A DNA stretch of 64,000 nt from Saprospiraceae bacterium (GTDB lineage: Bacteria > Bacteroidota > Bacteroidia > Chitinophagales > Saprospiraceae). The stretch lies in NCBI GenBank assembly GCA_028280415.1, contig JANQLV010000054.1:1-64000 (forward strand). Direction: 5' to 3'. Below the pieces are notes generated by a model that was given only the letters and a program-made list of their open reading frames with translations, was not told where the DNA came from and ran no database searches. Position numbers and translations under genes: made by a program. The stretch's first letter is position 1. The number at the start of each line of letters is the position of its first letter. Below, piece by piece: positions 3,228 through 47,792 of this stretch.

Positions 3228-3293
3228 GATTAAAATATTTTAAAGTAAAAAAATAGAGGAGCTTTTTATCGCCCCTCATTTTGCTTTGTACGT

Positions 3294-4515: not shown

Positions 4516-4652
4516 AGTCTATTATACTACATTATTATATTAGGCGTAATATTTGCTTTGTAATATTGTTATACTATTTTTGCTTCACTTTGCTGGGCAC
4601 ACTATTGAGCACTACTGCATAAATTCAGCAACAAATAACAATCGGGCACCAC

Positions 4653-5225: not shown

Positions 5226-5299
5226 TATACGATTTATTCCCCAATAATCATCTCATTATACTTATCCAATACTACCCTCTCTTCAGACAGAAAACTAGG

Positions 5300-29150: not shown

Positions 29151-30638
29151 ATGTCTGGATTGTTCAAGCTTTTTACATTTACCCTTTACATTTTATTTTT
29201 CACATCTGCTTCCCTAATTGGTCAACCTATATTTAATGCTAGTGTTGGTTCGAATGGCTCCGGGAATGGACAATTTAATCAAGCCAATGGCATTGCGATT
29301 AATCCTACGAATGGCAATATCTATGTAGCGGACCGCAATAATGAGCGGGTTCAAATTTTTAATAGTGCAGGAGTCTATCAGTCTCAATTTGGTTCTGTAG
29401 GAAGCGGAGATGGCCAATTCGCTTCCAACAATGGCTGCGTGGCTTTGGCAATAGACGCTTCGGGCGATGTTTGGGTAGTAGATAGGGGGAATCATCGCGT
29501 TCAACAATTTAATAGCGCGGGCGTCTATCAGTCTCAGTTTGGTTCGAATGGCTCCGGGAATGGACAATTTGATCAAGCCAATGGCATCGCCATTAGCTCT
29601 ACGAATGGCAATATCTATGTAGCGGACCGCAATAATGAGCGGGTTCAAATTTTTAATAGTGCAGGAGTTTATCAGTCTCAATTTGGTTCGGTTGGCTCCG
29701 GGGATGGACAATTTGCTTCCAATAATGGTTGTGTGGATATAGCAATAGACGCTTCGGGCAATGTTTGGGTAGTAGATAGAGCAAATCATCGCGTTCAGCA
29801 ATTTAATAGCGCGGGCGTCTATCAGTCTCAGTTTGGTTCGAATGGCTCCGGGAATGGACAATTTGATCAAGCTAATGGCATTGCTATTCATCCTACTAAT
29901 GGCAATATCTACGTAGCTGATCGTAACAATGAGCGCGTCCAGATCTTTAATAGTGCAGGAGTCTATCAATCCCAATTTGGTTCGGTCGGCTCGGGGGATG
30001 GACAATTCGCTTCCAACAATGGCTGTATAGACATAGCCTTTGCCTCTGGTACGCTGTTCTGGGTAGTGGATAGAGGAAATCATAGGATCCAGCAATTTTT
30101 TGATGCTTCTTTACCCATAGAATTGATGTACTTTGATGCTTTCGCTAAAGAAAGTGTAGTGTATATCGAATGGCAGACAGGCTCTGAACAAAACAATCAC
30201 TTTTTTGAAGTAGAACGATTGAATCATACTTTATCATGGGAGGTATTAGAACGAATAGAAGGCTCTGGGAACTCTTCTGATATCAAAAACTATCAAACTG
30301 TTGACCCCATTGCGCAGGCCGGTATATATTACTATCGATTGAAGCAAGTTGATTTTGATGGTCGTTCTTCCTACTCTGAGATAAAACAGGTAGAAATTCA
30401 AGCAAAAGGAACAAGTCTGGAGGTTTTCCCTAATCCTGCCAATGATTATTTACAAATTAAATTTGATCGACCCTCAAGCGGACAGTGGCTTATTATATAT
30501 GATTATAGTGGAAAAATGGTTTTTCAAAAACATATAGAACAGGGGATGACCTTAGATGAAATACAAATTAAAGATTTAGTTAAAGGAATGTACTGTATTA
30601 AATTCGGAGAATTTGGAGCCCTGTTTATTAAAGAGTAA
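29151..30638 (+). CDS. Secreted NHL-repeat protein with T9SS sorting domain
   Basis: A 495-aa protein with a signal peptide (FTLYILFFTSASLIGQ), six NHL-type blades in three nearly identical double units, and a C-terminal region with a sorting tail (LEVFPNPANDYLQIKFD, ending KGMYCIKFGEFGALFIKE). Blades read GNIYVADRNNERVQIFNSAG and VWVVDRGNHRVQQFNSAG. Six blades would close one beta-propeller. A spacer domain (about 325-410) has the fibronectin-like text IEWQTGSEQNNHFFEVERL, common before T9SS tails. It should be displayed on the cell surface. Near identity of the repeats at DNA level suggests recent duplication or gene conversion. Long minus-strand frames here are shadows of the repeats. Confidence 0.92.
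   Translation: MSGLFKLFTFTLYILFFTSASLIGQPIFNASVGSNGSGNGQFNQANGIAINPTNGNIYVADRNNERVQIFNSAGVYQSQFGSVGSGDGQFASNNGCVALAIDASGDVWVVDRGNHRVQQFNSAGVYQSQFGSNGSGNGQFDQANGIAISSTNGNIYVADRNNERVQIFNSAGVYQSQFGSVGSGDGQFASNNGCVDIAIDASGNVWVVDRANHRVQQFNSAGVYQSQFGSNGSGNGQFDQANGIAIHPTNGNIYVADRNNERVQIFNSAGVYQSQFGSVGSGDGQFASNNGCIDIAFASGTLFWVVDRGNHRIQQFFDASLPIELMYFDAFAKESVVYIEWQTGSEQNNHFFEVERLNHTLSWEVLERIEGSGNSSDIKNYQTVDPIAQAGIYYYRLKQVDFDGRSSYSEIKQVEIQAKGTSLEVFPNPANDYLQIKFDRPSSGQWLIIYDYSGKMVFQKHIEQGMTLDEIQIKDLVKGMYCIKFGEFGALFIKE
29247..30095 (+). repeat. 294-bp tandem repeat, three copies, inside the NHL gene
   Basis: The string GGTTCGAATGGCTCCGGGAA begins at 29247, 29541 and 29835, exactly 294 bases apart. Each unit codes for 98 residues, i.e. 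two NHL blades. The first two units differ at few positions; the third diverges towards its end (about 30030 on). Confidence 0.9.
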
Positions 30639-31251: not shown

Positions 31252-31809
31252 ATGTCCAAAAGAACGAACCGAATAGCTATATTTATTGATTTTGATAATT
31301 TTACGTCTGGTTATTATAGAAGATTTAAAAAAAGGAGAATTGATTTTGAAGATTGGAAAATACTAAACGAAAAATTAATTAATAGATACCGTGTGCTTTT
31401 TCCTTTTAAAGAAATAATTGATCATATTGGAACCTGGATTTCGATTGGAGTTTCGGAGTCGCCTAGTGAAAAAGAAAAAGAATTTCGTAAACGTATTCAT
31501 CAAATCGATTGTATCAATAAATTCAATGTGAAATATGGTTATAGAAATACTAAAGGAAAGGAAAAAGGAGCTGATACAGAAATAATTTGCCAGATGCTTG
31601 AATACGCTATTCTTGATCAATATGATAATGCTATCCTCCTAAGTGATGATGGCGACTTTATTCCTGCCGTACATAGAGTACAAGACAGGTACGGAAAAAG
31701 AGTGATTCAGGCAGGCTTTGAAAAAGTTTCCAGATTAAGAGGTGCTTGTTATGGAAATATCAAATTAGAAAATGCGAATACTTCTTTTGATTTTAATAAC
31801 GAACAATAA
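31252..31809 (+). CDS. NYN-domain ribonuclease-like protein (LabA/DUF88)
   Basis: A 185-aa NYN (PIN-like) protein. The acidic residues expected for metal-dependent RNA cleavage are present: Asp in IAIFIDFDN near the N-terminus, Asp in GADTEIICQM, and the SDDGDF motif in AILLSDDGDFIPAVHRVQ. Members of the family cleave or bind RNA and often sit in defence or regulatory contexts. The protein has no membrane segment, so it should be cytoplasmic. It stands alone between the pseudogene and a long gene-free gap. Its location between two defence loci is suggestive but proves nothing. Confidence 0.88.
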   Translation: MSKRTNRIAIFIDFDNFTSGYYRRFKKRRIDFEDWKILNEKLINRYRVLFPFKEIIDHIGTWISIGVSESPSEKEKEFRKRIHQIDCINKFNVKYGYRNTKGKEKGADTEIICQMLEYAILDQYDNAILLSDDGDFIPAVHRVQDRYGKRVIQAGFEKVSRLRGACYGNIKLENANTSFDFNNEQ

Positions 31810-32497: not shown

Positions 32498-33934
32498 CTA
32501 GAGCTGCTCCAGATCACTGACTTTCTGGAGTAGCCAGTTTTTAGCAATCAAAGGGCTCGTATTTTTAATACGCTCTCTGATTCGATCGATGGAATGGCTA
32601 TTCTTTTTTACACAATTATCTATGATAAGTTTTGTGATTTTTAAAAAATTAGAAAAGCCTGATAATTGATCTGTTTTTGCCCGGCGATTCACATATTGCT
32701 CCATTCGGTGGATGAAGTTTTTTGTAAATTTTAAATTTTTGGAATCTTCAAAAACTAATTCTATATAAGCTTTTACGCTAATAAATCTAAACCTGAGTCC
32801 AAAAGCAGATTTTCGGAAGCTATAAGGCAAGAGCAGCTCTATAACCTCTCCGTAATTACCTAAATCATAATGGACTGTTGCATATGCTAAGGCTTCGACT
32901 TGTTCTTTTTCATTTTCAGGAAGGTAATTTTTATAATTTTTAATAAAATCGGTCGCCCAACTTGTTTTATTATTTCTTGATGCAGTAGTGACGATGTTTA
33001 AAAAGTCGAAACTTACCAGTCGATTATTGTATAATAGTATATTTTTCATTAAACCAAACTGATAGAGGTGATGAATTTTTTTTAAATAGGCTGGATGTCC
33101 CGACAGTAATAAAGAATTCATCTGATTAATAATGATCATTAAGATCATTTTTTTATCAAATAAAGAAAACTTTTTGTGATGCATCTTAAAAAGTTTCGTT
33201 GCCAGTTGGATAAGGTCTTCCGAAGGATTGCTATAAAATTTTTCCAGTAAGAGTAAAATGCGTAAGAGAATTTGTTTGTTTTTAGATAGACTTGCAAGAT
33301 ACTGCTCGATATAAGGCTTAAAATAAAAAATTGGTGGTTTTTCTTTTAATACGCGTTGCCTGGAAGCTATTTCAATGGCCAGTTGAAGTTTTGAGAGCGC
33401 AAAGAACTGATTTAAATTACTTAACATATTGATAAGAAATTCTCTGGGCAATTCTTGACGATTGGTCTCGGGAAAATGATAATAAGTTTTTAAAAATAAA
33501 TACTGCTCTAAATAATACATACTATCCTTTGGTGAAATATCTTGCGAACGTTTGATGAGTTTATCAAATTGATGATCGAATTCTCTCTTGAGCGTTCTAC
33601 TGGAGAATGCGTTTAATAATAGCTGTTCTTGTAAAGCTTTGTTTTTTTTTAACTCAACCTGCTTAATATATTCTTGAATCAAATTGGTGAGGTCTAAAAT
33701 CAAATTCCTAAAACTGTTATCTCTATAGTTTTTGTTCGGATAAACCAGGGTATATAGATATTGCTTGGAGATATGTTCTTCTTTGAAATCAGGATAACTA
33801 ACGGAGATGGCTTCGTAAAGCTTAAGTACGCTGGGGTTAGTGTTAAAAAATGGAGAAGCTAAAAAGTCGCCTAATTCTTGTATTTCACTTTTTGTTAGCG
33901 TACTTACTAACCGGATAAGTTTACTTTTGAGCAT
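32498..33934 (-). CDS. Conserved helical hypothetical protein, about 478 aa
   Basis: The frame opens at 33967, but the Met at 33934 gives a more plausible start (MLKSKLIRLVSTLTKSEIQE). The protein is almost wholly alpha-helical, rich in Leu, Lys, Phe and Tyr, with no membrane segment or catalytic motif that I can see. The opening text with LGDFLASPFFNTNPSVLKL, then a Tyr-Pro and a KNYRDNSFRNL segment, is of a type I associate with a large uncharacterised family in Saprospiria. It lies convergent with the leader peptide gene. Helical repeats suggest a scaffold or binding role, unproven. Confidence 0.6.
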   Translation of the reverse strand: MLKSKLIRLVSTLTKSEIQELGDFLASPFFNTNPSVLKLYEAISVSYPDFKEEHISKQYLYTLVYPNKNYRDNSFRNLILDLTNLIQEYIKQVELKKNKALQEQLLLNAFSSRTLKREFDHQFDKLIKRSQDISPKDSMYYLEQYLFLKTYYHFPETNRQELPREFLINMLSNLNQFFALSKLQLAIEIASRQRVLKEKPPIFYFKPYIEQYLASLSKNKQILLRILLLLEKFYSNPSEDLIQLATKLFKMHHKKFSLFDKKMILMIIINQMNSLLLSGHPAYLKKIHHLYQFGLMKNILLYNNRLVSFDFLNIVTTASRNNKTSWATDFIKNYKNYLPENEKEQVEALAYATVHYDLGNYGEVIELLLPYSFRKSAFGLRFRFISVKAYIELVFEDSKNLKFTKNFIHRMEQYVNRRAKTDQLSGFSNFLKITKLIIDNCVKKNSHSIDRIRERIKNTSPLIAKNWLLQKVSDLEQL

Positions 33935-34112
33935 TATTGATATTTTGAAATGACAAAATTTTATCAATTATAATTATAAATAGCTAATTTACAGTTGTTT
34001 AAATACTTATTTGGTCTGTCAAGACTTATTTTTAAAATGACAAAGCTTAATTTATGAAATTAAAATTAATTTGTACATTGAATAATATTATAAATCTTTA
34101 ACCTACCTGAAA

Positions 34113-34697
34113 ATGAATGATTTTTTGAGACATAAGAGGAGTGAGTTGTTGTTTCTGGATACCGAATTTACCGGTTTGCATCAAGGTACGACCTTGATTA
34201 GTATCGGGATAGTAACACAGAACGGTAGCTCTTTTTATGCGGAACTGACGGATTATGCTCAGGAACAAGTTGATCGCTGGATTAAGGAAAATGTGATCAA
34301 AAACTTAACTCTTAGTGAGTTCCCGGCATCTTACTTCGAAATAAAAACGGATAGGCACTGGCGGGTCAAAGGAAATCGAGATTGGGTACGAGAAAAACTC
34401 AGTATTTTTTTATCGCAATTCGATTCGGTTATATTCTGGCTTGATCACTTGGCTTATGATTGGGTTTTATTTTGTCAGTTATTCGGAAATGCGCTCAAAA
34501 TTCCGGAGCAGGTATATTATATCCCCTTCGATTTAGCAACCTTTTTTCAGATCAGGGGAATTGATCCGGATATCAAACGGGCGACTTATATAGCTAAGGA
34601 GCTTTCAAACGGGCAACTTAGTCAAAAGAGACACAATGCTTTATTTGATGCTCACATCATACGATTGTGCTACGAAAAATTGATTAACACAGAGTAA
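34113..34697 (+). CDS. DEDDh 3'-5' exonuclease, first gene of the type III CRISPR operon
   Basis: A 194-aa DEDDh exonuclease of the Rv2179c/RNase T type. Catalytic residues seen: Asp16 and Glu18 in FLDTEFTGL, Asp116 in HLAYDWVLF, and His174 with Asp179 in KRHNALFDAH. The family trims RNA or short nucleotides 3'-5' with two metal ions. It lies 16 bases before CorA and reads into the cmr genes, so it belongs to the CRISPR operon. In CorA-linked type III systems the genes next to corA encode enzymes that degrade the SAM-AMP messenger (NrN phosphodiesterase or a lyase); neither is seen here. This enzyme is a candidate replacement. That role is inference. Confidence 0.85.
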   Translation: MNDFLRHKRSELLFLDTEFTGLHQGTTLISIGIVTQNGSSFYAELTDYAQEQVDRWIKENVIKNLTLSEFPASYFEIKTDRHWRVKGNRDWVREKLSIFLSQFDSVIFWLDHLAYDWVLFCQLFGNALKIPEQVYYIPFDLATFFQIRGIDPDIKRATYIAKELSNGQLSQKRHNALFDAHIIRLCYEKLINTE

Positions 34698-34713
34698 AAA
34701 TAATTATTTAAAA

Positions 34714-36588
34714 ATGCAAGATTCTTCAACATTTAATGGCAATACGGAAATCAAGAAGAATCTTGCTAAAACTACTTTTAGCAGACACATTTTTTTATTT
34801 TCTTTCAAATGGGAATACATTCAGGAAGATCAGAAAGGGTCTCTAACCAGTCAACCTCAAGTCAATAAATTTATTGAATTACTTCAATCTACTTCCAGGG
34901 AATCAGATTCGTCACCTTGGATCAAAAAACCTTTCCAACTTGATACTGCACTCAATTACAATGAGTATAATTATTTCTACGATTTCACCCGGGAGGTGAT
35001 GTATGACGTTTCTCCTTCCCTGAGTATATTGCGTGACGATGATGAAAAAATTCTTTACCATTTTCAATATCAGGAAATAGAGAATGCAACGTACCGCATT
35101 AAAATAAACAAAAACAGAAATCAGAAATCATCCGAAAATACAACCTATACGCTGGATATCGATAGCATACTTTTAAATGTTTACAATACAGGTGTGGCTG
35201 TGTTATCTTTTCATTTAATCAATTCACGATACGAAAATCTGCAAAGTGTCCTGGATATTAATCAATTTGGTCGAAGGATATATGCACCTTTCTTGGGACA
35301 ATCTGATGGAAATTTTGACCTGAAAGAAACTTTCGCCAGTGAACTCCCATCCGAAATATCCATTACTTTAGATCATTTGTCTATCATAGAAACATTCAAT
35401 GGTTACAAGAATAAAAACAATCTAAAAAGTGGGCCATTTCGGCTTCCTGCTTTTATTCAAAAGCTCCTTAGCGAAAAATTTAGATCTAGAAATTTTAGCC
35501 ATAAAAATAGCACGATTAAAATACCAGCCGAACCATATATATTGATTTCTCCGGTACAGGATGATCGAATGTTTGTACTGTGTTGGTTTCGTAGCCCTGA
35601 TTTTGCAATAAAAATAAAGGCAGCAGGACAAAAATATTTGGAAAACAAAGATTGGTATAAATTTCTTTTTGTGGACACGGATAGTCCTGGCTGTGGAAAT
35701 TCACGAATGATTGCTGAGCTTATTAAGCAGCATACCTATGACCGCTGGCTGGACTATGGGACACTTTACGGGATTTGTCGCTATGCGTTTGTATGCTTGG
35801 AGTCGAATACCTTTGCCCGGGATCACATGGTGGGAATGTATTATAAAATGATTGAATTGGCTCTGGTTCAGCGGGCGAGTATGCTGAAATTTTCGGATGA
35901 TGTCACTCGGCTTTCCCAGCTCTGGGAAAAGAAAGATGAGAAACAAACAACAAAAGAGATTCGCGAGTTATATGCCAATTACATTCGCTTTGTAAATAAG
36001 ATTTATTTCCGGGAAGTGACAGCCCAAGAGCAGGGAATTGAATTGTACGATCAGATTCAAGATCGATTCCGATTGAAAGAACATATTAAAGATCTGGATC
36101 AGGAAATCGAAGAACTGCATAGTTATGCGTCTATGCTCGAAGATAAAATGAAACGGGATCGTGAGGAAGAACGAAATGAACGTCTGGAGCTATTGACGAA
36201 AATGGGCTTCTTGTTTTTAGTACCTTCCTTCATCACAGGATACTATGGAATGAATGTCTTCGATGATCATTTGGCTCCTTATAACCTATACCACCTTATA
36301 GGTATTGGATTCGCTATTATTTTGGCAACTTTTATGATTTATTTTTCAACTCAGTTTCATGGTTCCCGAAAGAAAAGTATTACTATCCGTAAATGTTTAA
36401 CAATACTAAGTTTAATCGTCGTCATTTTCATGATGTTCTTTCCAGTAACCAACCAAAGGTCGAACCCGGGAATAGTCAAGGATAATCAAATTCCTCAAAT
36501 TAATAATGAAATAGATACTACCCGTCCCTCCAATATACCTGCTGAAAATTTAGAACTTAAATCCAAAGAAACAAATGACAAAGAATAA
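34714..36588 (+). CDS. corA: CorA-family membrane effector of type III-B CRISPR
   Basis: A 624-aa CorA-like protein. The long N-terminal part is cytoplasmic. A charged coiled coil (about 440-490, DQEIEELHSYASMLEDKM) leads to the first membrane helix, which ends in YGMN (YYGMNVF), the signature loop of CorA channels. A second helix follows (HLIGIGFAIILATFMIYF). A third hydrophobic segment (CLTILSLIVVIFMMFFPV) and a 45-residue tail are extra compared with classical two-helix CorA. In Bacteroides fragilis a CRISPR CorA is gated by SAM-AMP made by Cas10 and is required for immunity. The gene overlaps cmr1 by 14 bases. Confidence 0.88.
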   Translation: MQDSSTFNGNTEIKKNLAKTTFSRHIFLFSFKWEYIQEDQKGSLTSQPQVNKFIELLQSTSRESDSSPWIKKPFQLDTALNYNEYNYFYDFTREVMYDVSPSLSILRDDDEKILYHFQYQEIENATYRIKINKNRNQKSSENTTYTLDIDSILLNVYNTGVAVLSFHLINSRYENLQSVLDINQFGRRIYAPFLGQSDGNFDLKETFASELPSEISITLDHLSIIETFNGYKNKNNLKSGPFRLPAFIQKLLSEKFRSRNFSHKNSTIKIPAEPYILISPVQDDRMFVLCWFRSPDFAIKIKAAGQKYLENKDWYKFLFVDTDSPGCGNSRMIAELIKQHTYDRWLDYGTLYGICRYAFVCLESNTFARDHMVGMYYKMIELALVQRASMLKFSDDVTRLSQLWEKKDEKQTTKEIRELYANYIRFVNKIYFREVTAQEQGIELYDQIQDRFRLKEHIKDLDQEIEELHSYASMLEDKMKRDREEERNERLELLTKMGFLFLVPSFITGYYGMNVFDDHLAPYNLYHLIGIGFAIILATFMIYFSTQFHGSRKKSITIRKCLTILSLIVVIFMMFFPVTNQRSNPGIVKDNQIPQINNEIDTTRPSNIPAENLELKSKETNDKE

Positions 36589-37951
36589 ATTCACGCTCCG
36601 GTTTACGTTAAAACAACATACACCAATTATTCATTTCCAGGCAGATCAGGAAGGGGCTACGCTACGAGCCTCGGAGTTGAAGCCGAAATTGGATCGGTTT
36701 GTGGCTGACGACTTGAAGAAATTAAATCCAGAGTTATATAAAAAGCATCATGAAATGATTAAGAAATTTTTCATTTCTCAAAAGGATAAAAATCAACAAA
36801 CCGCATCATCTTATAAAATGAAAATCATATATGATGCTGATGCAACCGATGCGTATATTATTTCATCCTATCTGAGCAAAAAACAAATGGATTTACTGCA
36901 TTCAAAAAAAATAAAATTTATAGCACCTTCTCTATATTTTGCTCAAGAGAAAGAAATTGGAGCGTTGTTCAAAAAAGAAAAGATTAATAATAGAAACACC
37001 GTTTCTTTAGTGGACGATTATGAGGATAAACTTAAAGAGATTTTAAATAAAGGAATTGTAGCAAAGGATCAAAGTGTTCGTGTGGAGGTTTTTTCTTTCT
37101 ATGAAAGTATAAGAACATTAATTTCGTATAGCTTACCTTATGTGCTAACACTAGAAAATTTTGGGACTCGCCAAAATAAAGGTTTTGGCTGTTTTAGTTT
37201 AGAAGGACAATCCATTGAAGATTTTGAAGAGGGTTTAAGAAAGTTGATACGGGCGAAAATAGTTACTGCAGCTTACAAACATGTTAAGAGTTATTCTAGA
37301 TATAATGAAGTGCATGGTATAATCAACCAGGATTATAAGGTATTGAAATCCGGGATTAATAATAATAAAGATCCATATACTAAATCGCAATTATTTAAAT
37401 ACTTCTGTAAAGCGGAGCAAGATGCTATTCGATGGGAAAAGAGAACGATCAAACAACAAATTAATGCTATCCAAAATTCCGCATTTAGAAAGCGATTAAA
37501 ACAAATGAAATCAGATCCTGTAGATTGTGGAGATAGAAAGGGATGGAATGATTTAGAACCATACAATTATAAGTACATCCGAGCTTTATTGGGTTTAGCA
37601 GAACAATTCGAATTTCAGGTTACGAATAGTCGAGAAAAATATATCGTAACAATAAAATCAAAAGGAAAAATAGATCGATTCAAATCTCCCTTAACTTTTA
37701 AAGTATTAGACGGACACATTTATATCCTGGCATTTCAGGCCTCTATTAGTAGGATTACTAATGAGCTATTTGGTTTGACCTTAAAAAAGAAAACAAATAA
37801 TGGATATGAGAAGATTAATTTGAATGATATTCGAACCCCAGAAAAGTTTAATATCGAACATTTTTTGGATAAAGTAGTCAATAAAGAATTGCCAACAAAA
37901 AATGATGAATTAGAAATAAATTACAGAAAAATTATAGTTGATGAATCCTAA
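36575..37951 (+). CDS. cmr1: Type III-B CRISPR RAMP protein Cmr1
   Basis: A 458-aa RAMP protein at the first cmr position. The N-terminal LKQHTPIIHFQADQEGATLR then ELKPKLDRF matches the Cmr1 signature (T-P-h-h ... LR-x-x-E-h-K-P-x-h-D). A Gly-rich loop ENFGTRQNKGFGCF is the RAMP RNA-binding motif. Cmr1 (Cas7 group) caps the head of the Cmr complex and contacts the 3' end of the target duplex. The length is normal for the Bacteroidota form. It overlaps cas10 by 14 bases and corA by 14 bases, so the operon is tightly coupled. Confidence 0.85.
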   Translation: MTKNKFTLRFTLKQHTPIIHFQADQEGATLRASELKPKLDRFVADDLKKLNPELYKKHHEMIKKFFISQKDKNQQTASSYKMKIIYDADATDAYIISSYLSKKQMDLLHSKKIKFIAPSLYFAQEKEIGALFKKEKINNRNTVSLVDDYEDKLKEILNKGIVAKDQSVRVEVFSFYESIRTLISYSLPYVLTLENFGTRQNKGFGCFSLEGQSIEDFEEGLRKLIRAKIVTAAYKHVKSYSRYNEVHGIINQDYKVLKSGINNNKDPYTKSQLFKYFCKAEQDAIRWEKRTIKQQINAIQNSAFRKRLKQMKSDPVDCGDRKGWNDLEPYNYKYIRALLGLAEQFEFQVTNSREKYIVTIKSKGKIDRFKSPLTFKVLDGHIYILAFQASISRITNELFGLTLKKKTNNGYEKINLNDIRTPEKFNIEHFLDKVVNKELPTKNDELEINYRKIIVDES

Positions 37952-39662
37952 ACAACAATACCTTGCTCTGACCATTGGCCCGATATACCGAACCCTTACC
38001 GCAGTCAAAAGCACTAAAGCAATCTGGGCGGCAAGTTATCTATTCTCTCACTTGATGCACACGGTGTTAAGGGCGATTAAAGATCAGCCTGGCCTGAATA
38101 TTTTAATGCCCTACACCGGTGATTTGGGAGATAAAACCGAAGTTATCAATCTTTTCGAGGAAAAATTCACGAAAGATTTTGGTCTGTTTCCCGATCGTCT
38201 GATTGCTGAAAGTATAGCGCCGCAAAGGGATTACGATAGCCTAAAGAATGCTATTGATACGGCACGCATGAATCTGGTGGATTATCTTTTTGCGGATTTA
38301 AAAAATGAATCAAAAGATGCGCAGGGAGTATTCGAAAAACTTCGGCCGAGACTGACTAAACAGGATTTGACGGTATTTGTCCAATCTTATTTTCAATTGT
38401 CTCTTTTGCAATTCGAGCTAGGAGCTGAAGATATTGCAAAGGATAGTAATCCGGTCTTTGAGATTAATGCACTGCTGGATACCGTCGAATTACAACAACA
38501 ATTTCCGACTGTTGTCTCCGTGAATTATCTAAAGTACTTTTTAGAAGATATTTTCTATAATACGCTTGTGCAAAAAGGAAGCAGTTTGGAGCGCTTTCCT
38601 TCTACTATTGAGATTTCAACTTCGGGTTTATCTAAAATTTCTGAAAAAGCAAAGGAGTATCGTATCGCTGCCAGGCTATTGGTTTCGAAAGATAAAGCTG
38701 AAAACCAGGAAGGATTTCTCCAGGAATTGCGAGGGGCTAATTTCGAACTTCTACAGCATCATAAATACATCGCTATCGTAGTAGCCGACGGCGATAATAT
38801 GGGCAAACTGATTAGTGAAATCTATGCTTTTGATCCCGGTCTGTTTGAACTGTTTTCCAAACAACTGCTTCGCTTTGCTTATGCTGCGGCCTTACTCGTC
38901 AAAAAGAGCGGAGCCTATCCGATTTATACTGGTGGGGATGATCTCTTGTTTTTTAGTCCAATAGATGGTTTGGATATATCATCGGGTATAGAAACAAAGC
39001 ATTCCACTATTTTTCATCTCATTGGAAAAATAGACGAATTATTTGAACAATATATTGGAAGCCACGCTACTTTTCAGGACTTGTTTGATCGAATGGAAAA
39101 AAATGCTGTCGAGAAAAATACGGTTTTTCAAAAACCTTCCATGTCTTATGGTTTATCTATCAGTTATTATAAACATCCCCTCAACGAAGCTTTACAAAAA
39201 GGCTACGAATTACTCTTTCAAACAGCGAAAAATACGAAGAGTAAAAATACAGTGGCTTTTAGTTTGCAGAAGCACAGTGGTCAATCCTTCGGTGCAAGTA
39301 TTTCTAAAAATACCCGAAGTTATCAGGATTTCGTTCGACTACAAGACAGAGCCGTATTAGGAAGTGAGCGCTTTTTTACTTCAATCACCCACCGTCTTTT
39401 CGACCATCGAGCAACACTCTATTGGATTTATGATCACTTAAGGGATGAAACTTTACAGCTCCAACATCTCAGTAATTTCTTTGAGAATAATTTTGATGAA
39501 GCAATTCATCGGGATAACAGCAAGTATCTCGATGAAATCAAGCATCTAATGCACCATTTTTTTATCGATATAAATGCGGAAAGAAAAGACAATCAACTAG
39601 AGCAATTATACGCACTTATTCGCTTCATTCAATTTTTAAAAACGGAATATAAAAATGACTAA
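37938..39662 (+). CDS. cas10: Type III-B Cas10 (Cmr2), lacking an HD nuclease domain
   Basis: A 574-aa Cas10. The palm polymerase domain is intact: IVVADGDNMGKL near residue 282 and the GGDD motif in YTGGDDLLFF near 332. The N-terminus opens like Cmr2 (ALTIGPIYRTL ... AIWAASYLFSHL), with no HD motif and no room for a full HD domain; the protein is far shorter than the HD-containing form. It should therefore not cut single-stranded DNA and should act by making a nucleotide messenger. In relatives next to CorA the product is SAM-AMP, not cyclic oligoadenylate. The start overlaps cmr1 by 14 bases and the end overlaps cmr3 by 8. Confidence 0.92.
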   Translation: MMNPKQQYLALTIGPIYRTLTAVKSTKAIWAASYLFSHLMHTVLRAIKDQPGLNILMPYTGDLGDKTEVINLFEEKFTKDFGLFPDRLIAESIAPQRDYDSLKNAIDTARMNLVDYLFADLKNESKDAQGVFEKLRPRLTKQDLTVFVQSYFQLSLLQFELGAEDIAKDSNPVFEINALLDTVELQQQFPTVVSVNYLKYFLEDIFYNTLVQKGSSLERFPSTIEISTSGLSKISEKAKEYRIAARLLVSKDKAENQEGFLQELRGANFELLQHHKYIAIVVADGDNMGKLISEIYAFDPGLFELFSKQLLRFAYAAALLVKKSGAYPIYTGGDDLLFFSPIDGLDISSGIETKHSTIFHLIGKIDELFEQYIGSHATFQDLFDRMEKNAVEKNTVFQKPSMSYGLSISYYKHPLNEALQKGYELLFQTAKNTKSKNTVAFSLQKHSGQSFGASISKNTRSYQDFVRLQDRAVLGSERFFTSITHRLFDHRATLYWIYDHLRDETLQLQHLSNFFENNFDEAIHRDNSKYLDEIKHLMHHFFIDINAERKDNQLEQLYALIRFIQFLKTEYKND

Positions 39663-40773
39663 GTCGCAAAAAGTACTCATTACACTAAAGCCACTAAAAC
39701 CTTATTTCTTTGGTGGTGAGCAAACCTTCGGTCCGCCGGGAGATCGTTCGAATTATTTTGCAAAATCCAGAAAATTGCCACAACAAACAACACTTTTGGG
39801 TATGTTGCGCTACGAGCTGCTTGCACTTAAAGGTTTGTTGAATAATAAAGATAAAAAGAAAGCGAATCTTATTATTGGTGGAAAAAGTTTCAATGGAGAG
39901 GTGGAGGACTTCGGATTGATTGAAAAGCTTTCTGCCCTTTTTTTAATGAAGAAGAATACACCTTATTTACCTTTACCTAAAGCACATTTTTATGGTGAAA
40001 AAAATGTTTTACGTAACTACGACCTCCATGTTCTAGGGACGCCGGAAAGCCCTTCCGCTTTTATGCTACGGGATGATAAAGGAAATAATTATACGGCTAA
40101 GAATCATTTCGCCGAAGCCTGGATCAATACAGAGGATGAAAAAGAAGTAATTAAGGAATCAAAAATCTTCCAAAGTTCGGATAAAGTAGGAATTCGAAAA
40201 ACCAAAACCGGTAAGACAGAGGAGCACGCTTTTTTTAAGCAGAGATACTACGCAATGGTACAGGATTGGAAAATGGCTTTTATACTTTCTTTCAAAACAG
40301 ATGATGAAGTCGTTTGTAATTTTTTTTCCATCGGCCAGAAGCATCAGGTAGAATTAGGTGGAGAAGGTTCTGTCTTTTTAATGGAAATTAAATCGGCTGT
40401 AACTGAACCCACTTTACCCCAAGGCTATCCACGCTCGACAGCTTATCAAAAACTGATCCTAAAAAGTGATGCTTATGTTAAAGACCTTTCTGCGCTCTAC
40501 GACAGAGCTGTTTTTTCAATTACTGAGCCGGTGAGCTTTAGAAATATTAGAAGTAGCAATTCGGATAAAAAAGATTTTCGCTGGTCTAAACTGGATCGAT
40601 CCGGTCAGGAAAACAAAACCGCACCGTACAAAAGTGGATTGCATTTTTTGTTAAGCCGGGGAGCGATATTCTTTTGCGAAAATGCTGAAGCTTTCTCAGC
40701 ACATCTTCGGCATTCCGCCTTCCAAAAGATCGGATACAATCAGTTTGATATTATTCATAAAAATGAAAAATAA
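39655..40773 (+). CDS. cmr3: Type III-B CRISPR protein Cmr3
   Basis: A 372-aa Cas5-group RAMP protein. The opening ITLKPLKPYFFGGEQTFGPP followed by QQTTLLGMLRYELL is the typical Cmr3 N-terminus (L-K-P-x-F-F-x-x-x ... P-x-T-x-x-G-x-L-R). Cmr3 sits at the foot of the complex next to Cas10 and binds the 8-base 5' handle of the crRNA. It overlaps cas10 by 8 bases and is 6 bases from cmr4. Length is within the normal range. No internal defect was seen. Confidence 0.88.
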   Translation: MTKSQKVLITLKPLKPYFFGGEQTFGPPGDRSNYFAKSRKLPQQTTLLGMLRYELLALKGLLNNKDKKKANLIIGGKSFNGEVEDFGLIEKLSALFLMKKNTPYLPLPKAHFYGEKNVLRNYDLHVLGTPESPSAFMLRDDKGNNYTAKNHFAEAWINTEDEKEVIKESKIFQSSDKVGIRKTKTGKTEEHAFFKQRYYAMVQDWKMAFILSFKTDDEVVCNFFSIGQKHQVELGGEGSVFLMEIKSAVTEPTLPQGYPRSTAYQKLILKSDAYVKDLSALYDRAVFSITEPVSFRNIRSSNSDKKDFRWSKLDRSGQENKTAPYKSGLHFLLSRGAIFFCENAEAFSAHLRHSAFQKIGYNQFDIIHKNEK

Positions 40774-40779
40774 ATACCT

Positions 40780-41619
40780 ATGCCAAAATTTACCAGTCAT
40801 TTATATACTATCGAAGCCCTGACTAATCTTCACCCGGGAAGCGGAGATGTTAATTATTCTACTGTTGACAAGACCGTACAGCGCGATCCCGCTACCGGAT
40901 ATCCGACGATCCACAGTAGTAGTCTTAAAGGGGCGCTACGGAAATATTTTGAGGAAGAAACAGATATGGGGGATCGGGTCACATATATTTTTGGAGATCG
41001 TCCGGAAAATGGAAGTCAGGAAGCCGAACAAAAAGGAGCTTATCGTTTTTTTTCGGCTCAGTTACTTTCGCTACCCTTGCGTAGCAATTACCGGCCTTAT
41101 TACCAGGCCTTATCCAATGGTACGCTGGAGACACTGACGAAATTGTGCGAATATTTGTTGAGCCCGAAGCAATTTACCTTTGGGGATGCCTTAGAAAAAC
41201 TGAAACTACCGGAAGATGCTGCAACGACACTCTGTTACGTACTGGATACTGTAGATGGTCCCATCAGTGTGGAAGGCTATCCCGCTATGGAAGCGCAACA
41301 TGTCAGTACAGTTCCTGATACACTAAGCGAATTTATCGATAAACGGCCAGTACTTTTCTCCTCCCGGGATTTATCTCAAATTACAAAAAACCAGCTCCCG
41401 GTTATCGCCAGAAATCAGTTGGACAATGGCGAGAGTAAAAATCTTTGGTATGAAGAAGTGCTTCCCCGCATGACGAAGTTTTACTTCTTTGTTCAAGTAC
41501 CGCAAATAGGAAAAAATCATTTTACTGACTTCGAAAAAGAACTGAATAATAAAATCGTTCAAATCGGTGCCAATGCCAGTATCGGTTACGGTTATTGTTT
41601 GATTAAAAAAATAGTATAA
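40780..41619 (+). CDS. cmr4: Type III-B CRISPR backbone protein Cmr4
   Basis: A 279-aa Cas7-group protein. The N-terminal YTIEALTNLHPGSGD and YPTIHSSSLKGALRKYFE are the Cmr4 signature (L-H-x-G-x-G and h-P-x-h-x-x-S-S-h-K-G-x-h-R). Asp30 in STVDKTVQRD is the probable catalytic residue that cuts target RNA at six-base steps. Several copies form the backbone along the crRNA. The C-terminal NASIGYGYC is the expected Gly-rich loop. It is 1 base from cmr5. Normal length; RNA cleavage should be intact. Confidence 0.92.
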   Translation: MPKFTSHLYTIEALTNLHPGSGDVNYSTVDKTVQRDPATGYPTIHSSSLKGALRKYFEEETDMGDRVTYIFGDRPENGSQEAEQKGAYRFFSAQLLSLPLRSNYRPYYQALSNGTLETLTKLCEYLLSPKQFTFGDALEKLKLPEDAATTLCYVLDTVDGPISVEGYPAMEAQHVSTVPDTLSEFIDKRPVLFSSRDLSQITKNQLPVIARNQLDNGESKNLWYEEVLPRMTKFYFFVQVPQIGKNHFTDFEKELNNKIVQIGANASIGYGYCLIKKIV

Positions 41620-41620
41620 C

Positions 41621-42100
41621 ATGAACAAACGCATCAATGAATTGATCCCGGTAGCGATTTCGGTTATTCATAAACAATTGGCGGAGAATAAGTCTATCGA
41701 GGTACCGGAAACGTACAAAGGATACATTTCTGCTTTCTCTGGAAGTATCGTACAATCCGGTTTGTTGGCCGCGCTCACTTTTTATTCCGAAAAGTCTCCT
41801 GAAAAAAATGATGAGACCAAGAGTAGGAGAAATAAAATGCTGTGCGCTATCAAGACTATTCTACTTAAAAAAGGCTTGATTAAAACGACCTTGCTAAAAC
41901 TGGAATTCGCAGAAGGGGAGCAGAAAGATTTGCTGACCTATACCATGAAGTTTATTGATCCCAATTATAACAGCACGACGGATGAGTACACCTTTGAACT
42001 ACGGCCGGATCGAAGCAATATCATCCGCAACGAAATCATCGATGCGGCGATTGCACTCAAAATGGGACTCCGGATTTTTAAAATGAAGCAAAAAACATAG
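41621..42100 (+). CDS. cmr5: Type III-B CRISPR small subunit Cmr5
   Basis: A 159-aa mostly helical protein in the cmr5 position. The segment YKGYISAFSGSIVQSGLLAA matches the family core (Y-x-x-x-h-x-x-h-x-x-h-I-x-x-x-G-L-x-x-A-L). Cmr5 forms the inner filament against the Cmr4 backbone and guides target RNA. It lies between cmr4 and cmr6 with gaps of 1 and 3 bases. It is slightly longer than archaeal forms (about 150 residues at most), as usual for Bacteroidota. Confidence 0.85.
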   Translation: MNKRINELIPVAISVIHKQLAENKSIEVPETYKGYISAFSGSIVQSGLLAALTFYSEKSPEKNDETKSRRNKMLCAIKTILLKKGLIKTTLLKLEFAEGEQKDLLTYTMKFIDPNYNSTTDEYTFELRPDRSNIIRNEIIDAAIALKMGLRIFKMKQKT

Positions 42101-42103
42101 CTT

Positions 42104-43288
42104 ATGTCCAATCCAAATTTAGGCTACTTATTTTATAAAGAGTACTATCGACAAATCGACCTTAGACAGTTTTCTGAAGCGAATATAAATCGCCAAAAGA
42201 AAGTATCGAAAAGCAATAAAAAAATATTTGAGCAGAGAAATAAAGATCTTATAGGGGCAAAATTGGATGGAGGACTCCTGAAGTTTTTGCATCGCGTACC
42301 CCCTGGTGCGCAACAAAAGATTAAATTGAAAACGACCTATCCGGGACTCTTACTGGGGTCGGGCTACCTACACGAATCCGGTAGCGAAGGAGAATTTAAA
42401 CTGGGTTTTTTCTTTGATTATACAACGGGCTATCCGGTGATTCCAGGCTCGAGTGTAAAAGGAAAATTGCGATCGGTTTTTCCTTCTTTTAAAAGCCCTG
42501 CAAAGCATTTGCTACAACCCGAGCTGGAAAAAGAAGATGAATTGTCTAAAAACAAAGCCCAATACATCTGGTCCCTACTGCAAGCTGAAACGAACGAGGC
42601 TGTATTTGAAGAAAAAGATTATTCCCTGATCCATGAAATAGAGCAATGTGTTTTTGAAGGATGGGACCTAAAACGAGTAAAAGAACAAACAAATCGAATT
42701 CATTTTTTGCCGCTGGCCGGGAGAACTGTTTTTTTCGATGGCTTACCGGATACGGAAACGAATCAGGCTAAAGCATTCCTGACCGAAGATGCAATTACAC
42801 CACACCGGAATGAGCCGCTAAAAAATCCCATTCCCCTTAAAATGCTAAAAGTAGCGCCGGGGATTTGCTGGGTATTTTACTTTCGTATACCGGATATTGT
42901 CCTGAGTGATCACCGCCTGATCCCTGGCGAACAACTGGAAAAATTATTTACCCGGATTTTAATCGATCAGGGTATTGGCGCCAAGACGAATGTGGGTTAC
43001 GGCCAGTTAATCGAAATGCCTAAACCCAAAACATTTCAGAAAGGAGACCAGGTAGAAGGGATAATAGTCAACCAGCTGATTAGCGCGCAGGGACGGTATG
43101 AAATATACTTTGAGGTAGTGGGAAATCCGACTCCCGCCGTGGCTAGCGTTAGCCGGGATCAATACTACGAATTGGATGAAAAAGATCAGTGTCTGCTTAA
43201 AGTAAGCAGTATACGCCCGCAGGATAAGTCTATCAAATACGTCCAGATTTTGAAAGAAATCACCAAAAGGAATGGGCGACGGAAATGA
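42104..43288 (+). CDS. cmr6: Type III-B CRISPR RAMP protein Cmr6
   Basis: A 394-aa Cas7-group protein. The N-terminal part starts NLGYLFYKEYYRQID; the central GYPVIPGSSVKGKLRSVF is the typical RAMP helix of Cmr6 (P-V-I-P-G-S-S-h-K-G-x-L-R). A later IGAKTNVGYGQL is the Gly-rich loop. The last 80 residues look like a small beta domain (KGDQVEGIIVNQLISAQGRY), longer than archaeal Cmr6. It caps the head of the complex next to Cmr1. It is the last effector gene; the first CRISPR leader begins 16 bases after its stop. Confidence 0.88.
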   Translation: MSNPNLGYLFYKEYYRQIDLRQFSEANINRQKKVSKSNKKIFEQRNKDLIGAKLDGGLLKFLHRVPPGAQQKIKLKTTYPGLLLGSGYLHESGSEGEFKLGFFFDYTTGYPVIPGSSVKGKLRSVFPSFKSPAKHLLQPELEKEDELSKNKAQYIWSLLQAETNEAVFEEKDYSLIHEIEQCVFEGWDLKRVKEQTNRIHFLPLAGRTVFFDGLPDTETNQAKAFLTEDAITPHRNEPLKNPIPLKMLKVAPGICWVFYFRIPDIVLSDHRLIPGEQLEKLFTRILIDQGIGAKTNVGYGQLIEMPKPKTFQKGDQVEGIIVNQLISAQGRYEIYFEVVGNPTPAVASVSRDQYYELDEKDQCLLKVSSIRPQDKSIKYVQILKEITKRNGRRK

Positions 43289-43304: not shown

Positions 43305-43404
43305 AAAAAACATCAAAATGATAGCAAATGCATAATTTAAGGCTTTGTAGTATCTTGAAAAAGAGGGTAAGTGCTTTATTATCAGTTGCTTATAAAACGG
43401 AAGG
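43305..43404 (+). promoter_or_regulatory. CRISPR leader 1 (diverged copy)
   Basis: About 100 bases that match leaders 2 and 3, sharing ATGATAGCAAATGCATAATT, GGGTAAGT, CTTTATTATCAG or CGTTTATTATCAG, and a final CGGAAGG. In this copy the GCAAAT...ATTTGC inverted repeat is broken and the middle differs. It probably drives or once drove array 1. Confidence 0.75.
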
Positions 43405-43581
43405 ATAGGAGAGGACTGTTTTTAAGAGAGCATTGCGACCATATTTGAGAGTCGTATCACCAGGACTGTTCACTGTAGGAGAGCACTGTTTTTAAGATAG
43501 CATTGCGACATTGATCTTGTCGATTCCTTTCTGTCGAGAATCGAAAGTAGGAGAGCACTGTTTTTAAGAAGGCATTGCGAT
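43405..43581 (+). CRISPR. CRISPR array 1, three degenerate repeats
   Basis: Repeats lie at 43405-43439, 43475-43509 and 43547-43581, each 35 bases, one shorter than in the other arrays because the central T-rich tract reads CTGTTTTTAAG. All three differ from one another, and the last ends in GAT instead of GAC. Two spacers of 35 and 37 bases. Few, unlike repeats and a diverged leader suggest an array that no longer gains spacers. Confidence 0.92.
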
Positions 43582-43657: not shown

Positions 43658-44464
43658 ATGCAGCAAAAAAAAAGGAATAGCCTTTCAAAAAAAGATTATT
43701 GGCAGACTACTCTCCATGTCCCTATTTTAAAAATGACGTTTAGTATACCTCTTAAGCCCCATCAAATACCACAGTTCCGAGGGGCCATCGTTCACCTGGT
43801 AGGTAGAGAGTACGATCTTTTTCACAATCATCAACAACAGGACGACCGCTATTTCTACCGCTTTCCAGCGATTCAGTATCGGGTAGAGAGCGGCCAGGCG
43901 GTACTGATTGCTTTTGGCCCGGATGCTGTCGAGCAGGCGAATTGTTTATTAGGGAAAACAGGTCAGGAAATCACCCTTAAAAACCGGCGACAACCATTGC
44001 ACTTACTTGGTTTCCAGCAAGAGACCTTTAGATTATGTAAAGCAGTGAGTATGCAAAGCTATTGTCTTTACGACTACCTCGCTCTTAATCATGATAATTT
44101 TAAAAAATGGAAAGCCTGCAATAGTTTCCGGGATCGGATAGCTTTGCTGGAAAGGCTCTTGGTTGCACATTTGTTTTCTTTTGGTGCCGGGCTCGGTTGG
44201 ACTATCGAAAAGCCGCTGGCAGTTTGTATTCAGGAGATTCGACGGATCAGGATGGTCAAATGTTTCGGTACACGAACTCTGAGCTTTAACCTGAGCTATC
44301 AGACCAATCTTCAACTTCCTTCGGGCATTGCGCTTGGACGGGTGACCAGTCACGGATTTGGTGTACAACACCCTTTTGCCATCCCAAAATCTCCTGGGGA
44401 AAATCCCCGAAATTTCCATAGCATTCAACAATATGAAAAACATATTTTAAAAACCATAAAATGA
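43658..44464 (+). CDS. cas6: CRISPR RNA endonuclease Cas6
   Basis: A 268-aa RAMP protein between arrays 1 and 2. The N-terminal FSIPLKPHQIPQFRGAIVHL and YDLFHNHQQQ are typical of the Cas6 form found in Bacteroidota type III loci. The C-terminal LGRVTSHGFGVQHPF is the Gly-rich RAMP loop. Cas6 cuts the repeat within the transcript and leaves an 8-base 5' handle, here ATTGCGAC. A catalytic His may be in DLFHNH or further on; I could not assign it. It has its own position outside the cmr block, flanked by leaders. Confidence 0.85.
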   Translation: MQQKKRNSLSKKDYWQTTLHVPILKMTFSIPLKPHQIPQFRGAIVHLVGREYDLFHNHQQQDDRYFYRFPAIQYRVESGQAVLIAFGPDAVEQANCLLGKTGQEITLKNRRQPLHLLGFQQETFRLCKAVSMQSYCLYDYLALNHDNFKKWKACNSFRDRIALLERLLVAHLFSFGAGLGWTIEKPLAVCIQEIRRIRMVKCFGTRTLSFNLSYQTNLQLPSGIALGRVTSHGFGVQHPFAIPKSPGENPRNFHSIQQYEKHILKTIK

Positions 44465-44547: not shown

Positions 44548-45433
44548 GTAGGAGAGTACTGTAGTTTAAGAGAGCATTGCGACTTTTTAGATGTGTCGTT
44601 CAACTGAGCCAAAGAAAGTAGGAGAGTACTGTAGTTTAAGAGAGCATTGCGACTTCAATTTTGATGCGAGGCTGTTCATTTTCATCTTTGTAGGAGAGTA
44701 CTGTAGTTTAAGAGAGCATTGCGACCAACATTTCTGGCCCATCCAGTGGCGGATTTGGAATGTAGGAGAGTACTGTAGTTTAAGAGAGCATTGCGACCTA
44801 CAAATAGCCCTAATTCATCGGGTGTTGGCTTGTAGGAGAGTACTGTAGTTTAAGAGAGCATTGCGACTTTATTATACCATTGAATATATTCTACAACCCC
44901 GTGTAGGAGAGTACTGTAGTTTAAGAGAGCATTGCGACATTGAATTGAGGCGCACAAAGAAGTGCAATTACGTAGGAGAGTACTGTAGTTTAAGAGAGCA
45001 TTGCGACCTATACTGAACATCTCCTGTATAGTTGCTGTAACCGAGTAGGAGAGTACTGTAGTTTAAGAGAGCATTGCGACTTTGCAAAGAGTTCTTGCAA
45101 CTCTTCAAGTGAGGGTAGGAGAGTACTGTAGTTTAAGAGAGCATTGCGACTTTTATACATTCGGGGGGTAATGTACCATCCTTAACGTAGGAGAGTACTG
45201 TAGTTTAAGAGAGCATTGCGACAATTGCTTTCTCCAGCTTGATAACCTGGTTTCCGGGTAGGAGAGTACTGTAGTTTAAGAGAGCATTGCGACAATTATA
45301 AATAATTGGTCAAAATGACCGAGAAAAGTAGGAGAGTACTGTATTTTAAGAGAGCATTGCGACTTTTCTGCCTCACCTTTCGGGAGGCTTTGAGAATGTA
45401 GGATAGTACTGTATTTTAAGAGAGCATTGCGAC
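44548..45433 (+). CRISPR. CRISPR array 2, 13 repeats and 12 spacers
   Basis: The repeat is 36 bases, starting GTAGGAGAGTACTG and ending GCATTGCGAC. Repeats start at 44548, 44618, 44690, 44762, 44832, 44903, 44972, 45045, 45115, 45187, 45258, 45328 and 45398; spacers are 33-37 bases. Repeats 1-11 have GTAGTTTAAG in the middle; the last two have GTATTTTAAG, as in array 3, and the last also has GGATAG for GGAGAG. The leader is on the left, so the last repeats are the oldest. Transcription to the right gives the handle ATTGCGAC, typical of type III. Confidence 0.98.
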
Positions 45434-45463: not shown

Positions 45464-46507
45464 ATGAAAAAGAAGCAGTCCTTACGAAAAGTACGAAAGA
45501 TGAAAAATACCTTTTGTAAGCTCCGTACAGTAAGAGAGCTGGCGCAGTTATTAAAAATAGAATCTTTTAAATTACACTTATATGCGCATCAACCCGCTTA
45601 CCGCATTTTTTCTATTCCTAAAAAAGATGGCTCCAAACGCTGGATTGAAGATCCCGCGCCTAAACTGAAAAAAGTACAACGCTTATTAAATCATTATTTA
45701 CAAGCCACGTATTTTTTGTGCCGAAGCGATGCTACCTACGGGTTTATGATGAGTATCAAGAGTGATCCCGAGCCGCGTAATATTGTGACCAATGCACAAA
45801 AGCATTTGGGGGCAAACTATTTACTAAATGTTGATCTGGAAGATTTTTTTCACCATATTAAAGCGCCACGAGTATTAGAGGTTTTTCAAAATAAGCCCTT
45901 TGAATTTGAATTTGATTTAGCCAGTTTATTGACGCGATTGACTTGTCATCAGGGACGCTTGCCTATGGGGGCACCGACTTCTCCGGTCTTATCTAATTTT
46001 GCTTGTCGGGATATGGACGTTGCTTTATTGGAATTATCCAACTGGGCCGACTGGCAATTTAGTCGTTATGCAGATGATCTGAGTTTTTCGTCCCTTGACC
46101 GGGCAATCACAGAAATGGAATTTAAAAAAATCGAAACAATCGTTCAGTCGGCGGGATTTAGATTTAATCCGGAAAAAATTAAATTCTACGGTATCGAAGA
46201 AGATAAAAAAGTGACGGGGCTGCTATTGCGTGAAAAAGTTGAAATACCCATTGCGTTTTGGATGGAGTTAGATAAAGATTTATTGCGGCTTCGCCATCTT
46301 CGGGAGGTACAACAAATGGCTGGACGGTCGACAACCAAATGGGTAGATCGATTTGCTGAAAAAGTGCAGGGTAAAGTAACCTTTGCCGGGTTTGTTTATG
46401 GGGAAGAAGATTCCAGAAGTTTAACCCTTTATGATCAATTCGAAAATGCACTCCATCCGCCTCAAACTTTTGAGACCTTGAGCTGGCTGGATTTTCCATA
46501 TCTATAG
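45464..46507 (+). CDS. CRISPR-associated reverse transcriptase
   Basis: A 347-aa stand-alone reverse transcriptase. Motif A is YLLNVDLEDFFHHI, motif B is RLPMGAPTSPVLSNFA, and the catalytic box is SRYADDLSFSS with YADD near residue 200. The opening includes YRIFSIPKKDGSKRWIEDP, which is typical of retron/CRISPR RTs. It is 9 bases upstream of cas1 and so forms an RT-Cas1-Cas2 adaptation module. In some type III systems such modules acquire spacers from RNA; elsewhere the RT is fused to Cas1, here it is separate. No maturase or endonuclease domain was seen. An internal start at 45500 is possible. Confidence 0.92.
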   Translation: MKKKQSLRKVRKMKNTFCKLRTVRELAQLLKIESFKLHLYAHQPAYRIFSIPKKDGSKRWIEDPAPKLKKVQRLLNHYLQATYFLCRSDATYGFMMSIKSDPEPRNIVTNAQKHLGANYLLNVDLEDFFHHIKAPRVLEVFQNKPFEFEFDLASLLTRLTCHQGRLPMGAPTSPVLSNFACRDMDVALLELSNWADWQFSRYADDLSFSSLDRAITEMEFKKIETIVQSAGFRFNPEKIKFYGIEEDKKVTGLLLREKVEIPIAFWMELDKDLLRLRHLREVQQMAGRSTTKWVDRFAEKVQGKVTFAGFVYGEEDSRSLTLYDQFENALHPPQTFETLSWLDFPYL

Positions 46508-47512: not shown

Positions 47513-47792
47513 TATCAGCAATGACAGGCTTCGAGTGAAGATTGCCAATAAATTGCGCTATTTTGGATTGGATAATATCCAGTATTCTGTATTTTTAGGT
47601 AAGGTTAAAGCGAAAAATAAGAAAAAGCTGATAAGTTCATTGAAACAACTAATCGAAACGAAAGGAGGAATAAAAGACAGCATCTTTGTCATCGAATTGA
47701 ATCCGTCGCAAATTCAAAACATGCAAGTTCTGGGAAAGCGCCAATTAGACCTGGATTTGTTAAGAGGGATGAGGTATACGATTTATATTTAA
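47490..47792 (+). CDS. cas2: CRISPR-associated protein Cas2
   Basis: A 100-aa Cas2 with a ferredoxin-like fold. The longer frame opens at 47400, but the ATG at 47490 gives the family start MPLLVCYDISNDRLRVKIAN. The Asp in CYDIS is the conserved metal-binding residue and RYFGLDNIQYSVFLGKV is the typical dimer strand. It overlaps cas1 by 23 bases, which supports translational coupling. It bridges two Cas1 dimers in the integrase complex. Leader 3 begins at its stop codon. Confidence 0.95.
   Translation: MPLLVCYDISNDRLRVKIANKLRYFGLDNIQYSVFLGKVKAKNKKKLISSLKQLIETKGGIKDSIFVIELNPSQIQNMQVLGKRQLDLDLLRGMRYTIYI

Follow-up and report, generated by a model that had tools for sequence, protein, structure and literature searches.

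Why immunity through the membrane effector CorA should need a destroyer of its own activator is a question that stands in print, in passages of PMC10600005 and PMC12255297. It bears on a CRISPR locus in a 64,000-nucleotide stretch of DNA from a Saprospiraceae bacterium (GCA_028280415.1, contig JANQLV010000054.1, positions 1 to 64,000; hereafter the window), where a DEDDh exonuclease gene precedes corA. What does this enzyme act on? The earlier note described an intact exonuclease as the first gene of a CorA type III-B operon, with 16 bases between it and corA, and the open reading frames and five catalytic residues bear this out. The gene (34113-34697, forward strand) opens with ATG and encodes 194 residues; the operon starts with it, the preceding ORF (32498-33967) lying on the opposite strand.

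The remainder of the locus is also on the forward strand. After corA (34714-36588; 624 residues; Pfam, PADLOC and alignment) come cmr1 (36575-37951; PADLOC Cmr1 at 2.1e-67, no match in Pfam), cas10/cmr2 (37938-39662; Pfam, PADLOC and alignment) and, each recognised by both Pfam and PADLOC, cmr3 (39655-40773), cmr4 (40780-41619), cmr5 (41621-42100) and cmr6 (42104-43288). These are followed by cas6 (43658-44464; Pfam Cas6b, PADLOC Cas6), an array of 13 repeats (44548-45433), a reverse transcriptase gene (45464-46507) adjoining cas1 (46517-47512), cas2 (47400-47792, an ORF that extends back into cas1, the Cas2 match beginning at residue 31) and a second array of 17 repeats (47891-49049). The stretch between cmr6 and cas6 also contains a decayed mini-array of three degenerate repeats (43404-43581). 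The reverse transcriptase is a stand-alone protein whose top models are retron-type, below their cut-offs. Counting the window, 12 of 86 corA loci have a homologue, which perhaps serves spacer capture from RNA. The 28 spacers of the window match none of the corA loci fetched at an E-value of 0.01. Outside the operon, an ORF at 29151-30638 with near-identical tandem repeats has the appearance of an NHL-type repeat protein. An NYN-domain gene (31252-31809; PADLOC NYN 4.6e-8, HEC-09 1.4e-10) lies 2.3 kb upstream of the operon and has a homologue in none of 85 other corA loci, making a tie to the CRISPR NYN proteins doubtful.

By signature, the locus is a SAM-AMP type III-B (CorA-1) system. For Bacteroides fragilis Cas10, the acidic residues D70 and E151 are reported to be absolutely conserved and to lie close to the SAM acceptor site, and R152-R153 and D219-D220 are the residue pairs of the proposed SAM-AMP site of CorA (PMC10600005). 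Their putative counterparts in the window, equated by conservation and order rather than by direct alignment with the B. fragilis proteins, are D86 and E184 of Cas10 and RR187-188 and DD283-284 of CorA (part of a conserved DDR283-285). Across the first 276 residues of Cas10 from 62 corA loci, position 86 is Asp in all and position 184 is Glu in 60 and Asp in two; with six further rows the figures become 68 of 68 for Asp86, and 64 Glu and four Asp, where it should be noted that among these 68 rows L217 repeats L093 and L213 overlaps L046. Twelve of 13 DEDDh loci are present in this alignment, with nine Glu and three Asp at position 184. The window Cas10 also has an intact GGDD motif, with the cyclase residues DD334-335 present. 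In CorA the arginine pair is retained in 87 of 88 proteins, the other having a gap, and the two aspartates in 88 and 86 of 88.

The exonuclease itself has all five catalytic residues (Asp16, Glu18, Asp116, His174 and Asp179), which are invariant in all nine corA-linked copies first collected and in all 13 of the larger set. It reaches 38.7 bits against the Rv2179c-like domain PF16473, above the gathering cut-off of 27, and 65.2 bits against the NCBIfam RNase AS equivalog NF033638, below its cut-off of 200; the PADLOC model for CRISPR-associated DEDDh proteins gives a weak match (8.1e-05). It also matches the phage family PHROG_2259 (E 4.6e-50; residues 12-191 against 8-173 of the 186-position profile). 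A sequence search of the PDB with E-values up to 1 yields only three distinct sequences, RNase AS (6s0m, 4oke) and 4hec, which is labelled uncharacterised. An AlphaFold model (pLDDT 87) has a predicted RNase H-like exonuclease fold and, compared with the PDB, finds RNase AS on top (6s0m, 4hec, 4oke and 4hvj; for 6s0m_B, E 5.4e-10 and TM 0.82 when scaled to the target's length); RNase T, Cap18 and DnaQ follow. Identity in these RNase AS matches is 26-28%, and D111, D140 and R156, common to corA-linked and phage copies, are missing in the single actinobacterial row that was compared. RNase AS is poly(A)-specific according to its PDB title, and 4hvj is an AMP complex; no paper on its enzymology was among the literature matches listed. 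A nearest fold of this kind, in the model, would suit an enzyme that takes AMP off SAM-AMP.

Enzymes next to corA have been described before. In the text of Chi et al. (2023; PMC10600005), the gene adjoining corA encodes NrN, a lyase (Clostridium botulinum) or, in Streptococcus oralis and S. lipocalidus, a DEDD-family nuclease; NrN and the lyase were assayed, and an off-switch is given as one possibility for the NrN and DEDD enzymes. The same source reports that NrN is required for immunity in E. coli and is inactive on pApA and cyclic oligoadenylates (cOA), while whether the degrader resets CorA or averts its desensitisation is still a question there. Hoikkala et al. (2024; PMC11229360) marked the three enzyme kinds, DEDD, NrN and lyase, along a phylogeny of CorA and repeat the DEDD-corA proposal, and a 2025 paper on the lyase reports that it can substitute for NrN and that a SAM-AMP lyase is carried by a phage (PMC12255297). 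The premise of the earlier note, that known loci carry NrN or a lyase and that a DEDDh enzyme departs from them, was thus incomplete: the DEDD proteins of Chi et al. and Hoikkala et al. are likewise found in type III-B loci, next to corA, and are proposed to switch SAM-AMP signalling off. In the open-access literature searched we found neither an assay of a DEDD protein nor a link to a phage family. The arrangement is already known; the present analysis adds the kinship with a phage family, the way DEDDh alternates with NrN, and the exchange of cassettes.

NrN, a DHH phosphodiesterase, and the lyase compare differently with the window enzyme. The fold family of NrN is unrelated to DEDDh. In B. 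fragilis NrN fills the same slot upstream of corA, with the same predicted products, SAM and AMP. The clostridial lyase also fills the slot, but belongs to the PII superfamily and yields products other than those proposed for the DEDDh enzyme (PMC12255297). As the earlier note had it, neither is present at the window locus: a search of the window ORFs of at least 60 residues with the NrN (DHH) profile and for homology to the clostridial lyase gave no match. Elsewhere in the genome, on other contigs, open frames of 585 and 336 residues are its only two matches to the DHH family.

To survey the slot upstream of corA, we used five CorA proteins as queries against the genomes of 84,980 species. 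Of 139 relatives 80 were kept and, with five further loci (two of them repeating scan records) and the window, make 86 loci (numbered with the prefix L). Among these, 32 have NrN, 22 an NrN-CorA fusion, two both of these, nine DEDDh and 21 neither; the last group includes four with the clostridial lyase, whose homologues were seen only there (L070, L071, L079 and L094), and two with another DEDD type. In the set of 88 loci used for the CorA tree, NrN is found in 53 (31 stand-alone, 22 fused), DEDDh in 13, the other DEDD type in three and the lyase in four; nothing was recognised in 11, and in four the slot is cut off by a contig end. No locus among the 88 has two kinds of degrader. The 11 loci with none recognised in the DNA examined, three of which have less than 2 kb upstream, imply either that a degrader is dispensable or that further kinds exist. 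At one locus with no known SAM-AMP degrader (L029, a Campylobacterota MAG), a gene for 728 residues (3154-5340) lies 70 bases upstream of corA; it has cyclic-nucleotide-binding and metallo-beta-lactamase domains and a weak match to Apyc1, and is possibly a fourth kind of degrader, possibly a chance neighbour.

The positions agree closely. In 30 of 34 cases stand-alone NrN immediately precedes corA and reads in the same direction, from an overlap of 131 bases to a separation of 10; of the other four, two are divergent and two lie more than 4 kb from corA, at loci with a fusion as well. DEDDh takes the same place, from an overlap of 62 bases to a separation of 223 (longest ORFs), so that the predicted placement in the NrN slot holds. 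The further prediction, that DEDDh and NrN or lyase exclude one another, holds equally within the locus DNA examined: none of the 13 DEDDh loci carries either, upstream DNA being short for two of them (966 bases in L035, 1719 in L047). Were the genes independent, finding no NrN in the nine DEDDh loci of the first survey would have a chance of 3e-5, a figure that ignores relatedness.

Searched with a profile built from those nine copies, 390 genomes of the phylum yield matches in two, both times beside corA. Among 396 genomes of the order, 11 contain matches, at 12 places in all, ten of them directly upstream of corA and four of these ten new, bringing the corA-linked copies to 13. The association of DEDDh with corA in the order exceeds chance. 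The two exceptions are L211, on a contig of 3.75 kb, and L212 (8446-9045, 9264-10192), where a DEDDh gene of the corA-linked clade stands beside a CRISPR array of 14 repeats and an AAA ATPase gene, with neither corA nor NrN in the 18 kb examined. This orphan is perhaps the remnant of a locus, perhaps a sign of a role on RNA.

The distribution of the enzymes over the CorA tree (88 proteins) indicates repeated swapping. The DEDDh label changes eight times, at least six of these forced by well-supported branches, and often the change is against NrN. Sister pairs with DEDDh in one member and NrN in the other are L089/L086 (support 100/100) and L216/L024 (98/96), and L021, with DEDDh, groups with the NrN loci L018, L019 and L031 at 100/100; the window CorA has no well-supported sister. 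L021 and L019 are 58% identical in corA, 61% in cas10, 58% in cmr3 and 54% in cmr4, though only 27% in cmr1; L021 has DEDDh where L019 has NrN, and both Cas10 proteins keep the Asp and Glu columns and read GGED. Gene displacement of this sort is a usual mark of equal function, and by that mark DEDDh may be taken to do the work of NrN, whose activity was tested in B. fragilis. At L089 there is also an ORF of 1022 residues (17806-20874) with a stretch 36% identical to a 358-residue ORF of the L086 locus.

A different kind of exchange is seen in two genomes of one genus (L093, which is contained in L217, and L216). Their flanking DNA is 89-90% identical and their DEDDh proteins are 93% identical, DNA identity ending within the last bases of the gene. 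Beyond that point the cassette has been exchanged, with amino acid identities of 33% for corA, 40% for cmr1, 38% for cas10, 31% for cmr3, 44% for cmr4, 31% for cmr5 and 52% for cmr6, and DNA matches of only 280 and 111 bases inside it, before the match resumes at cas6 (94%), the reverse transcriptase (92%) and cas1 (93%). The dN/dS ratio of the DEDDh pair is 0.147, against 0.054-0.074 in the four neighbours compared, as for a gene under purifying selection, to judge from this comparison. That DEDDh was retained while the CorA and Cas10 it serves differ so much between the two genomes would agree with a diffusible substrate common to both sets. The exchange taken alone would also be compatible with action on RNA, the gene having stayed together with cas6, the reverse transcriptase and cas1.

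From its slot, the exclusion and the swapping, we infer that the window DEDDh probably degrades SAM-AMP as the partner of CorA and so takes over the function of NrN in this operon. DEDDh enzymes take 5'-mononucleotides off 3' ends. SAM-AMP, in which AMP is joined 5'-3' to SAM (PMC12255297), thus looks like a dinucleotide that ends in a free 3' adenosine. Judging by its signature residues, Cas10 would respond to the binding of target RNA by joining AMP to the 3'-OH of SAM; the product would bind CorA and open the membrane, as in the B. fragilis system; and the DEDDh protein, as a two-metal 3'-5' exonuclease, would remove 5'-AMP and leave SAM, by which CorA may be reset or tuned.

Could the enzyme instead trim the 3' ends of crRNA, or degrade RNA, on behalf of the Cmr complex and have no part in the messenger's fate? 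Members of the family are labelled as RNA or DNA 3' exonucleases, an NYN protein has been proposed in print to trim crRNA in the B. fragilis Cmr system, and the orphan beside an array at L212, with no corA, fits a role on RNA equally well, as does the way in which DEDDh stayed with cas6 while corA and the cmr genes were exchanged. A trimmer, however, should ignore NrN, whereas DEDDh was found together with neither NrN nor lyase and occupies the slot that they have elsewhere, and ten of the 12 copies in the 396 genomes of the order adjoin corA. NrN, its counterpart in the slot, has no action on pApA or cOA in the reported assays (PMC10600005). We consider this alternative unlikely.

Less likely still is that the enzyme, as a secondary effector, has a different or an additional substrate, either some other product of Cas10 (pppApA or linear oligoadenylates, for example) or host poly(A) RNA. 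The poly(A) specificity in the title of its nearest solved relative would agree with this, as would the loss from most of the 13 corA-linked copies of three residues, described below, that are nearly invariant in phages. It is harder to square with the repeated exchange against NrN, which spares pApA and cOA (PMC10600005), and the signature residues of Cas10 indicate SAM as the acceptor. That a phage gene landed beside corA by chance is very improbable in spite of the window copy's grouping with phage proteins, the position being conserved in 13 loci (ORFs overlapping in nine of them, longest ORFs taken), the catalytic residues intact in all 13 and the dN/dS ratio low in the one pair.

The SAM-AMP-degrading partner that we favour has its closest relatives in phages. 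Of 50,697 phage records, 378 match the window protein, 332 of them covering 80% or more of it, the best near 50% identity (49-51% for phages Eldridge, EFDG1 and Goe21). A scan of viral contigs gave 277 relatives, of which 80 were kept, with identities up to about 52-53%; the best corA-linked relative, at 45%, falls below the viral best. With L046 as the query, a scan of viral sequences gave no relative. The phage proteins form the family PHROG_2259, labelled RNase H and present in phages of Bacillus, Enterococcus and others, to which the window protein also belongs, a point that the earlier note had missed. No corA, cas10, NrN or lyase was seen on 128 viral stretches (flanks of 2-5 kb or less, some sharing a contig), and a thymidylate synthase gene is nearby in three of five close phages examined. 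With such neighbours, the ancestral substrate was probably nucleic acid.

In the DEDDh tree a branch with 96/97 support separates the window copy and 83 viral rows from the 12 other corA-linked copies, the orphan and one viral sequence (L266). None of 200 trees, from a bootstrap that had not settled, joins the 14 CRISPR rows in a single clade; an AU test does not reject such a clade (p 0.184 with 14 rows, 0.253 with nine). A separate capture of the window gene is thus suggested only. Adding distant outgroups gave a tree distorted by long branches, which was set aside. Among 84 phage and viral rows, E157 is found in 83, K173 in 79 and I183 in 81, against two, one and one of the 13 corA-linked copies; the main viral scan patterns spare these three positions, one later pattern covering 173, with Gln. 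The L212 orphan retains E157 and K173. The losses hint at an altered substrate or partner in corA-linked copies, or could reflect their faster evolution.

The other corA-linked DEDD branch (L106:3065-3610, L033:2216-2734 and L037:1342-1842) and the window family have homologous profiles (hhalign 97%). Unlike the window type, it has Val at the position aligned with Asp116, followed by Glu (the copy of genome G501 together with L033 and L037), such that the third metal ligand may have moved. A structure model of this branch, with pLDDT 61, was too poor for use. The DEDD protein of S. oralis may be of the window type.

The lyase family, too, is shared between phages and CRISPR loci, as phage AcrIIIB4 illustrates (PMC12255297). 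It is conceivable, if doubtful, that some or all PHROG_2259 exonucleases are anti-CRISPRs that hydrolyse SAM-AMP or similar adenylate messengers, and that type III-B systems captured them repeatedly, the window separately, as an off-switch for CorA; SAM-AMP degraders common to phages and CRISPR systems would then come from two unrelated enzyme families, the lyases and these exonucleases. As to why CorA immunity keeps such an enzyme, if a third unrelated one fills the slot and swaps with NrN, the need would be for the removal of SAM-AMP and not for one particular protein partner. The kinship with phage proteins would in turn make a large phage family, which carries fold-level labels only in the records examined, relevant to SAM-AMP.
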